DNA from: Prochlorococcus marinus XMU1405 | GTDB lineage: Bacteria > Cyanobacteriota > Cyanobacteriia > PCC-6307 > Cyanobiaceae | Length of the DNA stretch: 64,000 nucleotides | Assembly (NCBI RefSeq): GCF_017696275.1 | Contig: NZ_JAAORF010000003.1 | Coordinates: forward strand, 62,001-126,000 | Direction of reading: 5' to 3' | Shown: one piece after another, positions 1,092-33,576 of the stretch | How positions within the stretch are numbered: position 1 is the first letter of the stretch | How the letters are laid out: each line of letters opens with the position of its first letter | Notes under the pieces: generated by a model | Databases searched by the model: none | Seen by the model: only the letters and a program-made list of their open reading frames with translations | What the model was told of the DNA's origin: nothing | Program-made: the position numbers and the translations under genes

Positions 1092-2183
1092 CTAAACGTT
1101 AAATAAGAACTCCATTACATCACCTTCGTTAACAATATATTCCTTACCTTCACTTCTTAAAAGACCTTTAGTTTTTGCATTGGCAATTGAACCTGAATCA
1201 ATTAAATTTTGATACGAAATAGTCTGAGCTCTTATAAATCCTTTTTCAAAATCAGTATGAATTACTCCTGCTGCCTGTGGCGCAGTCATCCCATCTTTTA
1301 TTGTCCAAGCTTTTGTCTCCTTTTCTCCGGTAGTGAAATAAGTTTTTAATCCCAATAATTTATATGTTGATCTAATTAAAGAACTTAATCCCCCTTCTTC
1401 TACTCCTAAGCCAATAAGGTAGTCTTTTTTATCTTCTGGTTCTAACTCTATTAATTCAGATTCGACTTGCGCTGATATTTTTATACATTCTGTATTTTCA
1501 TTGCTTGCAAAATTCTGAACTGTTGATGAAAAATCATTACCTTCAGATAAATCATTCTCATTCAAATTAGTTGCGTAAATAATTGGTTTAGCAGTGAGGA
1601 AGCCTAATTGCTTAATTATTAAATTTTCTTCTTCATTCAAAGATATTGATCTAACTGAAAGGCCTTTCTCTAGCTCTTCTTCAATTTTTTCTAGTAAGTT
1701 ATCTTCTTTAGCTGCCTCTTTACTAGTTCTAACCTGTTTTTTAATTCTTTCTCTTCTTTTTTGGAGTTGAGATAAATCAGCTAAATTCAATTCCAGATTA
1801 ATTATCTCAATGTCATCCAGGGGATCTACCTTTCCAGAAACATGAATTACATCACTATCTTCAAAGCACCTTACAACATGAACTATTGCATCAACCTCCC
1901 TAATATTTGATAAAAATTTATTTCCCAAACCTTCGCCTTTACTAGCTCCTTTTACTAGTCCTGCGATATCTACAAATTCAATTTTTGTTGGGATAATATT
2001 TTGGCTAGAACTTAAATTACCTAACTCTTGCAACCTTTGATCTGGTACTGAAACTATGCCTTTATTAGGTTCTATAGTACAAAAGGGGAAATTAGCCGCT
2101 TGAGCCTTAGCATTTTCTACAAGTGCATTAAATAGAGTTGATTTTCCAACATTTGGTAATCCAATAATACCTGCTTTTAACAT
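1092..2183 (-). CDS. ychF: YchF/Ola1-family GTP/ATP-binding protein
   Basis: The 363-residue length matches this universal translation-associated P-loop family. The G1 motif GLPNVGKST lies at residues 8-16. The G3 motif DIAGLVKGASKGEG follows. The G4 position reads NLNE rather than NKxD, which is the family hallmark linked to ATP preference. A coiled-coil insertion sits at about residues 130-180 and a TGS domain occupies the last 85 residues. Known homologues bind ribosomes and take part in stress control. It is a single gene, convergent with the small gene pair at 764-1083. Confidence 0.96.
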   Translation of the reverse strand: MLKAGIIGLPNVGKSTLFNALVENAKAQAANFPFCTIEPNKGIVSVPDQRLQELGNLSSSQNIIPTKIEFVDIAGLVKGASKGEGLGNKFLSNIREVDAIVHVVRCFEDSDVIHVSGKVDPLDDIEIINLELNLADLSQLQKRRERIKKQVRTSKEAAKEDNLLEKIEEELEKGLSVRSISLNEEENLIIKQLGFLTAKPIIYATNLNENDLSEGNDFSSTVQNFASNENTECIKISAQVESELIELEPEDKKDYLIGLGVEEGGLSSLIRSTYKLLGLKTYFTTGEKETKAWTIKDGMTAPQAAGVIHTDFEKGFIRAQTISYQNLIDSGSIANAKTKGLLRSEGKEYIVNEGDVMEFLFNV

Positions 2184-27275: not shown

Positions 27276-28641
27276 TAACTTATTAAGAGCTCCAAACCAA
27301 AGTATTGAGGAAACTGGCTATGCCTGGTATGTAGGTAACGCTAGATTAATCAATTTATCTGGACGTTTATTAGGAGCTCACATTGCTCACTCTGGACTAA
27401 TAGTCTTTTGGGCGGGAGCAATGATGCTCTTTGAGGTTAATCATTTTACTTTTGATAAACCGATGTGGGAGCAAGGTCTAATCTGTATGCCACACGTAGC
27501 AATGTTTGGTTATGGAATAGGTCCTGGTGGTGAAGTTACAGACATCATGCCTTTCTTCCAAGCGGGCGTGGTTCATTTAATAGCTTCTGCTGTTCTTGGT
27601 TTTGGTGGTATTTACCATTCATTAGCAGGTCCAGAAAAACTTGAAGAAGATTTTCCGTTTTTCTCTACTGATTGGAGAGATAAAAATCAAATGACCAATA
27701 TTCTTGGATATCATTTGATCGTTCTAGGTGTAGGTGCATTAGCATGGTCAGTAAACTGGTGTTTTATTGGTGGTGCATATGACACATGGGCACCTGGTGG
27801 TGGAGAAGTCAGACTTGTTAATCCAACACTAGACCCAAGAGTTATTCTTGGTTATCTATTTAGATCTCCATGGGGAGGAGCTGGTTCAATAATCGGTGTC
27901 AACTCTATTGAAGATATTGTTGGTGGACACGTTTATGTGGGTATTACTGCAATTATTGGAGGAATATTCCATATCTTTACCAAACCTTTTGGATGGGCAA
28001 GAAGAGCATTCATCTGGAATGGTGAAGGATTACTAAGTTATGCACTTGGTGGAATCTGTGTAGCAAGTTTTATTGCTTCAACATTCATCTGGTTCAACAA
28101 CACCGCTTACCCTTCAGAATTTTATGGCCCAACAAATGCTGAAGCTTCACAGGCTCAAAGCTTTACTTTCCTTGTGAGAGATCAAAGAATTGGTGCTAAC
28201 GTAGGTTCAACAATGGGACCAACAGGTCTAGGTAAGTATCTCATGAGATCTCCTACAGGTGAAATTATATTTGGTGGTGAAACAATGAGATTTTGGGATT
28301 TCAGAGGCCCATGGCTAGAGCCCTTAAGAGGACCTAACGGATTAAGCCTTGAGAAAATCCAAAACGATATTCAGCCTTGGCAGGTAAGAAGAGCTGCTGA
28401 ATATATGACTCATGCTCCTAACGCTTCTATCAACTCTGTTGGTGGAATTATTACAGAGCCTAATGCTGTTAACTTCGTCAACCTAAGACAATGGTTAGCT
28501 GCAGCTCAATTCTTCCTAGGATGGTTTACATTCATCGGTCACCTTTGGCATGCAGGACGTGCTAGAGCAGCCGCTGCTGGTTTCGAAAAAGGAATCGACA
28601 GAAAGAGTGAACCAGCTCTAGAAATGCCTGATTTAGATTAA
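27259..28641 (+). CDS. psbC: photosystem II CP43 antenna protein
   Basis: The start is GTG 27259 ([14 protein letters not shown]), preceded by GAGGAGGT at 27243-27250 inside psbD. An ATG at 27232 in frame is not needed. The 460-residue product has six spans, many chlorophyll-ligand His residues and the large lumenal loop with [20 protein letters not shown], which carries the Glu and Arg near the Mn cluster. The psbDC overlap is universal in cyanobacteria and plastids. A terminator follows. Confidence 0.98.
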
Positions 28642-31924: not shown

Positions 31925-31989
31925 TTTCATGGTTTTACTAAAAAAGTGTTTCCTTGTTTCCACTTTATAAGTTAAACCACTCTTCACAC
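31899..31989 (-). ncRNA. Yfr2-family-like small RNA
   Basis: Read on the minus strand: an outer stem TGGTTT/AAACCA (31974-31979 with 31930-31935), an inner stem AAAGTG/CACTTT (31961-31966 with 31943-31948) closing a 12-base loop GAAACAAGGAAA, then a terminator GGCCCC-ATTATA-GGGGTC followed by eight T. A hairpin with a GGAAACAAGGAAAC loop plus terminator is how I remember the abundant Yfr2/Cyano-1 RNAs of marine picocyanobacteria. The 5' end is estimated from a TAAATT box at about 31996-32001. Confidence 0.65.
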
Positions 31990-32057
31990 TTTTTTAATTT
32001 ATGCCATGAAGTTTTTTTTCGTGGACGAGACAAATGGAATGTTACTTAACTGTCACA

Positions 32058-32084
32058 TATGCCAGTTTTTCATTTCTGGGCATA
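32058..32084. repeat. imperfect inverted repeat
   Basis: TATGCCAG and CTGGGCATA can pair with a one-base bulge across a T-rich loop. No T tract follows on either strand, so it is not a simple terminator. It lies just upstream of the small RNA promoter on the minus strand. Confidence 0.3.
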
Positions 32085-32193
32085 ATGCAAAAAAAAGACA
32101 TAAATACAGAAAAAGGAGTGTTTACTTATCAGAGATTAACGTGTGAAGAGTTTCCAATTTGTTTAACTTACTAAGAAAAGGTATAAATTTTAT

Positions 32194-33059: not shown

Positions 33060-33218
33060 TTAGTAAACTTTGCAATGAGAACTTGTTGGGTGGTCTATGC
33101 ATTCTTTTTCCCAATAATCTTGCCTAGGGTCTTTTGGCAGTTGATAATTAAAATCATGCATTTTCCAAATATCTGAAGTTGCATTTTTTAGGGCAGTTAA
33201 TGGAGTGGTTAGTCTCAT
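33060..33218 (-). CDS. CP12-like mini-protein (52 aa)
   Basis: A 52-codon frame with a strong ribosome site (AAGGAGGT, 5 bases before the ATG at 33218-33216). The C-terminus WEKECIDHPTSSHCKVY has Cys40-x3-Pro-x4-Cys49 followed by K-x-Y. This is the same pattern as the C-terminal GAPDH-binding loop of CP12 (CxxxPxxxxC-R-x-Y). The N-terminal half has no CP12 first cysteine pair. It may bind GAPDH or another dehydrogenase, or be a truncated regulator. Confidence 0.65.
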   Translation of the reverse strand: MRLTTPLTALKNATSDIWKMHDFNYQLPKDPRQDYWEKECIDHPTSSHCKVY

Positions 33219-33272
33219 AAACCTCCTTTATGACTACTTCTTAATTATCCTCCTATTCAATTGAAATTAATA

Positions 33273-33294
33273 GAGTATTAATACCCGAGTATTA
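33273..33294 (+). promoter_or_regulatory. direct repeat at a candidate promoter
   Basis: GAGTATTA occurs at 33273-33280 and 33287-33294, a 14-base period. The second copy overlaps TATTAG (33290-33295), a possible -10 box. TTGAAA at 33261-33266 is a possible -35, but the spacing is long. Confidence 0.35.
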
Positions 33295-33299
33295 GTGCT

Positions 33300-33431
33300 T
33301 TGTGGTTGTCAAAACTATCTCTTCCCATTCATTAGGAGTAGAAAGAATTCAGAAGTCAAGGGCACTTCATCGACTCTCTGGACATCGAGGCACATGAGAC
33401 TCAAAAGGGCAAACAAATGTCCTCTTTTTTT
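33300..33431 (+). ncRNA. candidate small RNA (or 31-codon gene) with terminator
   Basis: An isolated + strand unit of about 130 bases, near 43% G+C by hand count over 122 bases, well above the surrounding gaps. It ends in a clear terminator. A GTG frame at 33302-33397 could encode 31 residues (VVKTISSHSLG...), but its codons lack the A/T third-base bias of neighbouring genes, so a structured RNA is more likely. It converges on tRNA-Ser. No known family recognised. Confidence 0.5.
33406..33431 (+). terminator. rho-independent terminator
   Basis: AGGGCA-AACAAA-TGTCCT stem-loop (one G-T pair) followed by C and seven T. It points away from the CP12-like gene and toward tRNA-Ser, so it belongs to a separate + strand transcript. 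Confidence 0.7.
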
Positions 33432-33491
33432 AAATTTTATAAGTACTTTTTATTAAATAATTACATTGATAATGGGAAAGATTACAAAAAA

Positions 33492-33576
33492 CGGAGAGGG
33501 TGGGATTCGAACCCACGAATAGTTTCCTATTAAACGATTTCGAATCGTTCGCTTTCGACCGCTCAGCCACCTCTCC
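33492..33576 (-). tRNA. tRNA-Ser (anticodon CGA)
   Basis: An 85-base cloverleaf on the minus strand: acceptor GGAGAGG/CCTCTCC with discriminator G, D-arm TGGCTGAGCGGT, anticodon loop TTCGAAA giving CGA (reads UCG), a long variable arm typical of Ser, and T-arm GGGTTCGAATCCC. No CCA is encoded. Confidence 0.96.

Follow-up and report, generated by a model that had tools for sequence, protein, structure and literature searches.

Known small RNAs and the locus

Prochlorococcus has few regulatory proteins (PMC2518516), and MED4 is the strain for which most sRNA information is available (PMC7368042). Two of its RNAs, Yfr11 and Yfr16, are reported to be 149 and 138 nt long and alike within the one genome (PMC2518516). 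Yfr103 is described as a multi-copy sRNA of marine picocyanobacteria with a conserved structure and an upstream palindrome; homologs are reported from NATL1A and NATL2A, the paralogs of Synechococcus CC9605 measure 290–328 nt and the RNA is abundant in MIT9313 (PMC5069720). Two further sRNAs, Yfr2-type Cyano-1 (RF01701) and Yfr10 (RF02362), are encoded close to the locus studied here.

This locus lies in a window of 64,000 nt, the whole stretch of DNA that was analysed, from a Prochlorococcus marinus genome of 1,672,276 bases in three contigs. A transcript probably spans about 33290–33431 on the + strand, its 5′ end being predicted, and comparison between genomes makes it very probable that it belongs to a multi-copy family of structured, non-coding sRNA genes of Prochlorococcus. 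This level of confidence applies to the identity as a structured sRNA gene family and not to the mechanism. Cyano-1 (31926–31993, − strand) shares AGGAG(U) with the family, but neither its model nor that of Yfr10 (32083–32158, − strand) has a match over 33286–33438 even at E up to 5, and Rfam 15 as a whole has no family overlapping this interval at the same limit. The Yfr10 and Cyano-1 copies of the window carry matched variants of complementary motifs, ACTCTTCACAC and GTGTGAAGAGT. Yfr10-like and Cyano-1-like stretches elsewhere in the genome (L386 and L387, identified by likeness) read ACTCCTCACAC and GTGTGAGGAGT at these places, which looks like compensation between the two RNAs. Rfam also places a match to IsrR, the antisense RNA described for isiA, at 27673–27856 on the − strand (159.4 bits).

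One of the genomes compared, G015, is presumably that of MED4. Yfr11 and Yfr16 have lengths in the range of the new family, but there is no significant match to the family at their published coordinates in G015. The member found in this genome (1348255–1348403) is diverged and lacks the conserved promoter, and Table 1 of PMC2518516, which covers Yfr8–Yfr21, has no entry over this interval. We did not find the family in the literature, including the available portions of PMC2518516, PMC7368042, PMC5069720, PMC6778093 and PMC2897979, in a search that left out the 2014 MED4/MIT9313 primary transcriptome and supplements. A preliminary description of the locus, made from the letters of the sequence, had suggested that the RNA might be new. 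It is indeed absent from Rfam 15 and from that Table 1, the comparison being limited to those sets, and it may have been published before with a Yfr designation, for example among Yfr22–29 or Yfr101–108.

Features and conservation of the RNA

Members of the family consist of a start region with a GTA-N4-TAC dyad, an AGGAGU linker, a P1/P2 hairpin and a terminator. In the window, the start region (33273–33294) holds two direct repeats of GAGTATTA at 33273–33280 and 33287–33294, a candidate operator containing the dyad at 33275–33284. The P1/P2 hairpin, as derived from family alignments and free folding, occupies 33353–33402 of the + strand, with P1 arms at 33353–33357 and 33398–33402, P2 arms at 33362–33368 and 33387–33393 and a loop at 33369–33386. 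The intrinsic terminator (33406–33431, + strand) consists of a stem-loop at 33406–33423 and a T7 run at 33425–33431. The G+C content is 43.8% over 33297–33424 compared with 32.5% for the whole window, and the flanks 33432–33490 and 33240–33296 are at 15.3% and 26.3%. Further downstream and outside the RNA unit lies a tRNA-Ser(CGA) gene (33492–33576, − strand), which is present in nine of the 36 related loci scanned.

The direct repeat, the roughly 130 bases near 43% G+C, the stem-loop with its T7 run and a 31-codon frame (33302–33397, GTG start) had all been noticed in the preliminary description and are found as claimed. Its possible −10 element is not borne out, as a sigma-70 scan gave no site at the start region in the window. 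Across the copies the two 20-nt blocks of the start region have identities of 0.92 and 0.96, as a promoter might. For the 'promoter repeats', operator half-sites are a better guess, because the repeats overlap the conserved GTA-N4-TAC dyad. Other features of the single copy are at chance level: the fold of the whole element is no better than that of dinucleotide shuffles (z = 0.13), and over the 1.8 kb scanned the terminator count is 1 versus 1.1 ± 0.9 in shuffles. It is the comparison across genomes that decides.

A DNA match to 33250–33440 at E ≤ 0.01 is found in 159 of the 200 genomes of the genus and in 61 of the 66 near-complete ones. Among the matches listed, a genome has between one and four and the best places range from 89% down to 78% identity. 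A 20-base core pattern matched 105 stretches among the named genomes. Eighty of these are listed; one is from a Geobacteraceae record, and the other 79 belong either to Prochlorococcus or to a Synechococcaceae single cell. In 20-nt blocks over 44 distinct oriented copies, identity is 0.88–0.96 through the start region and the RNA, from about 33262 onwards, falls to 0.85 at the terminator and is 0.49 just past it.

Three covariance models, R1, R2 and R3, match the window at 33286–33438 on the + strand with 154.3, 150 and 107.1 bits, the window copy itself being one of the rows from which each was built. R2, whose rows come from the window's genus only, matches 33 of the 41 genomes of a second, LLI-like genus. 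R3, built from rows of both genera with two leaders of small-protein family D included (see below), finds, at E ≤ 0.05, 114 of 300 genomes of the taxonomic family, spread over 15 of 37 genera. For three second-genus genomes this stricter family-wide search gives six, nine and ten R3 matches, and searching them alone at E ≤ 1 gives 10, 13 and 15. Of two 2.4 Mb genomes from another genus, one has no R3 match and the other has one (G289, E = 0.0365, single copy, left out of every alignment); a 2.2 Mb genome has none. Carriers in the second genus include G306, which we take to be NATL2A. The RNA family is thus like Yfr103, known here by description, in being multi-copy, structured and present in that presumed NATL2A genome, but the reach of R3, with nought and one match in the two 2.4 Mb genomes, argues mildly against identity with Yfr103, the two being compared by description only.

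The copies of the second genus are clustered and are both divergent and tandem. In L104, two divergent RNAs at 1365–1516 (−) and 1501–1646 (+) have matches that overlap by 16 nt at their 5′ ends, and the overlap sits on a GTATTTCTAC dyad; the same arrangement is seen in L102, L103, L274 and L277–L279. In L335, positions 380000–387500 of the presumed NATL2A genome, four family RNAs, two Cyano-1 RNAs and a glutamine-II riboswitch lie within 7.5 kb, together with short genes ending in a TTGQIIPG-type sequence, which we presume from their look to be high-light-inducible proteins. An Rfam scan of six loci carrying relatives (L103, L279, L266, L271, L335 and L337) left the RNA family itself unmatched and elsewhere in these loci gave only Cyano-1, the glutamine-II riboswitch and a sub-threshold miRNA model.

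The cross-strain alignment that the preliminary description had recommended as a check was run and shows covariation in other genera and no coding pattern. The 31-codon frame is intact in 25 of 42 copies; 13 have a premature stop, six an indel and four a lost start codon, and the position of the stop is kept in only seven. An overlapping 44-codon GTG frame has an internal stop in 22 of the 42. Substitutions at the three codon positions number 122/89/120 in the 31-codon frame and 122/122/89 in the 44-codon frame. That this test has power is seen from the control, a neighbouring small-protein gene of family A, for which 19 distinct genes give 19/25/84. By these counts the substitution pattern of the RNA element is non-coding.

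The hairpin consists of P1 (GAGUC..GACUC) around P2 (GCACUUC..GAGGUGC, with a CAC..GUG core), and the terminator comes next. P1/P2 was first spotted by eye and tested afterwards, and RNAalifold on the copies of the window's genus missed it, giving other helices with double changes in the terminator only. In the same-genus alignment A1 (44 rows), 95.3% of the cells pair compared with 33–49% when slid, and the covariation score is 0.059 compared with at most 0.037 slid and 0.051 shuffled. Four pairs in A1 show double changes, all of them in the terminator helix (0.8 in shuffles, up to five in slides), while changes in P1/P2 are one-sided only. Both-sided changes with pairing kept are found in the terminator helix in A5 as well as in A1.

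In alignment A4, which holds 63 matches from 30 second-genus loci aligned to the R2 model, 94.4% of the cells are paired. Double-change cells number 174 in A4 (67.6 ± 6.5 shuffled and at most 30 slid), 132 in A5, which combines the two genera (versus 41.2), and 108 in A6, to which further genera were added (versus 29.3); these counts overstate the covariation, as A4–A6 were fitted to the model and so lean toward the structure and part of the P2 double changes are register shifts of one CAC/GUG helix, with GCAC laid on CACU. When the hairpins are cut out and folded freely, with a cut-out pattern that favours pairable ends, 51 of 61 from other genera have z < −1 (mean −2.34), as have 14 of 20 from the window's genus (mean −1.69); the window copy was mis-cut (z = −0.1). 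An alternative helix between the 5′ AGUGCUUU and AAAGCACU pairs in 94.0% of the cells with zero double changes, and a switch between it and P1/P2 is possible. The hairpin and the terminator recur in other Prochlorococcus genera, and on this comparative evidence the secondary structure of the RNA family is conserved.

The divergent small-protein gene and its leader

In the window, a small-protein gene of family A (52 aa, 33060–33218, − strand, with the SD sequence AAGGAGG at 33222–33228) is divergent from the RNA. The same layout is seen in 47 of 50 same-genus loci, with a small-protein gene of family A in 27, of family B in 12 and of family C in eight. The three exceptions are a contig end (L004), a frameshifted family-A gene (L034) and a locus where the gene is absent (L046). 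The ATG mostly lies 65–70 nt from the start of the RNA region (range 33–70). In the second genus, a fourth family, D (61 aa), is found at 70–72 nt in L098, L100 and L105, and other loci of that genus have a second, divergent RNA in between. In further genera, no gene of families A–D is present within about 500 nt upstream of the RNA copies. The pairing is not obligatory, since the presumed MED4 genome has the RNA copy without the conserved promoter and, separately, a family-C gene without an RNA. Also in this genome, a family-A gene (G015:C1:627532-627687) precedes the published Yfr14 interval (627811..628062) by about 120 nt, and a relative of the small-protein tail that is broken and holds an in-frame stop (L053, 2775–2834) lies less than 1 kb from the published position of Yfr16.

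Families A and B end in a CP12-like C-x3-P-x4-C-x2-Y tail, which is shared with the C-terminal segment of CP12. The resemblance does not extend to Pfam membership, and matches in the PDB are non-significant: in a profile search, the best two of three matches are CP12 peptides with E values of 0.33 and 0.89. The small protein was rejected as a CP12 (PF02672), as it has no Pfam match and an hhalign probability of 8.3 against the CP12 of the same genome.

Of the 200 genus genomes, 185 have relatives of family A, and so do cyanophage P-TIM68 (61.5% identity) and 38 viral contigs. In P-TIM68 the gene (L051, 3001–3156) comes after an Hsp20 gene, and R1 detects no RNA in the 6.1 kb around it. Over 39 phage and viral loci, the one strong R1 match lies on a 6.7 kb contig of host-like appearance, which has a family-A gene (88%) as well. 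The remaining loci give weak matches only, the best being in L128 (E = 0.022), and among the contigs retrieved with two core patterns a strong match is again confined to this 6.7 kb contig. A match in L149 was taken as chance.

Of 50 loci, 48 have the GTA-N4-TAC dyad in the start region (41 of 43 distinct copies), where its frequency over the window predicts about 0.01 occurrences per 40 nt. Among the 63 second-genus matches, 42 contain it within their first 25 nt. Beyond the dyad, leader sequence appears to be shared by the RNA and the small-protein genes. R2 matches two family-D leaders (E = 0.002 and 0.0034), each match ending 12 nt before the ATG, and in alignment GTAGAAATAC and CCTATGAATTTC are common to the family-C leaders of the window's genus and the leaders of the second-genus RNAs. 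Homology of the 5′ half of the RNA to the small-protein leader is thus well supported by sequence in the second genus.

In the window's genus such homology is suggestive. The leader of the small-protein mRNA in the window (33219–33272, − strand) may share ancestry with the 5′ half of the RNA family; R3 matches leaders of this type weakly, in L001 with 23.2 bits (E = 0.014) and in L002 with E = 0.099. Leader matches on the opposite strand at E ≤ 1 are found in four of 16 RNA loci (E = 0.047–0.67), and in the same 16 loci none is found at any family-B or family-C gene. Because two family-D leaders are among its rows, the leader matches of R3 are not independent. The shared leader sequence, ending in a hairpin and terminator in one case and in a ribosome site and gene in the other, suggests that a single leader, once duplicated, may have given rise to both the RNA and the mRNA.

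Possible roles of the RNA family

Conservation, the non-coding pattern, the covarying hairpin and terminator and the recurrent divergent gene together lead to the identification of a structured small-RNA family. The small RNA that the preliminary description had offered as one of two readings is accordingly borne out by the conservation, the conserved hairpin, the intrinsic terminator and the non-coding substitutions. We infer that its members function as trans-acting small RNAs, and any mechanism that we give is a proposal only. The RNA would be transcribed, it and the small-protein gene would both answer to one regulator, and the RNA would act in trans.

One form of such action, an ordinary trans-acting sRNA that has its own mRNA targets, is seeded in the linker or the hairpin loop and involves no mimicry of leaders, is a plausible reading that we stop short of calling probable. 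The linker and loop blocks are conserved at 0.88–0.96 in the window's genus, and parts of both are predicted to be unpaired on average. A target scan did not favour it: three segments of the window copy, the only copy used, were set against 1478 ORF starts, and their best energies stayed inside the range of five shuffles per segment but for one marginal exception (−30.8 versus −30.1 in shuffles).

The homology between RNA and leaders suggests a different mode of action, the mechanism that we prefer, though we advance it tentatively. In it, the RNA mimics a leader: as a terminated and untranslated form of the small-protein leader, it would compete for whatever RNA or protein acts on such leaders. 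The decoy form would then be the same leader, terminated and capped by the hairpin. A broader and rather speculative extension is that the family is Prochlorococcus-wide and evolved from or with the leader of tiny proteins with CP12-like tails, that divergent promoters of one dyad give rise to a translated form and a decoy, that this module multiplied in the LLI-like genus and that phages carry the protein without the RNA.

The copy in the window is the only clear one in its genome (the next best match has E = 0.74). Relative to the consensus, its second AGGAGU motif, its loop and its P2 3′ arm are changed, and it is one base short after P1. Four of five pairs can form in P1 and five of seven in P2, but in the minimum-energy structure of this copy the 3′ arm of P2 is paired to the 5′ end of the element. 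Given one non-pair in P1 and two in P2 and the whole-element z of 0.13, this copy may be altered or decaying. The stronger statement, that the locus is a decaying duplicate without function in the host strain, draws on the same changed conserved sites and non-pairs in a sole genome copy and on the existence of truncated copies, for example in genome G022 (MIT9515, as we assume from its size). We regard it as unlikely, as the family is conserved elsewhere, in the 159 genus genomes and 15 genera given above, and as the dyad, the terminator and the small-protein gene are intact at the window locus.

A role as a sponge for Yfr1 or Yfr10, with the AGGAGU motifs pairing with their ACUCCU core as in Yfr2, is to be doubted rather more. 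AGGAGU occurs twice in the consensus, Cyano-1 (Yfr2-type) RNAs lie 1.3 kb away in the window and in four of the six second-genus loci scanned, and Yfr1 and Yfr10 are reported to be enriched with Yfr2 (PMC6778093), but the complementarity is 6 nt only, and with Yfr10 reading ACTCTTCACAC and Cyano-1 GTGTGAAGAGT in the window, the second motif of the RNA, AGAAGT, does not pair with that Yfr10.

A type I toxin–antitoxin system, in which the RNA would repress the divergent small protein by base pairing, has little in its favour beyond the small ORF lying divergent at similar spacing in many copies. The two genes do not overlap, and the duplex with the mRNA start is no better than shuffles in six of six loci (18 to 82 of 100 as good). 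By eye, the small proteins are not hydrophobic single-span peptides, and one partner is found without the other. Finally, a short peptide gene, the second reading of the preliminary description, has both GTG frames open in the consensus and the shorter one in 25 of 42 copies to recommend it, and is scarcely credible against the stops, indels, lost starts and codon-position counts reported above.

For Prochlorococcus, a conserved and often multi-copy RNA outside Rfam could have escaped notice. The family could have been overlooked because the model strain MED4, as we take G015 to be, has a single diverged copy without the usual promoter. The divergent layout of RNA and small-protein gene leads to a testable idea of function, and it is of interest that cyanophages carry relatives of the partner protein. 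If leader mimicry is correct, the small protein of cyanophages, being encoded without the RNA, would be free from the decoy.
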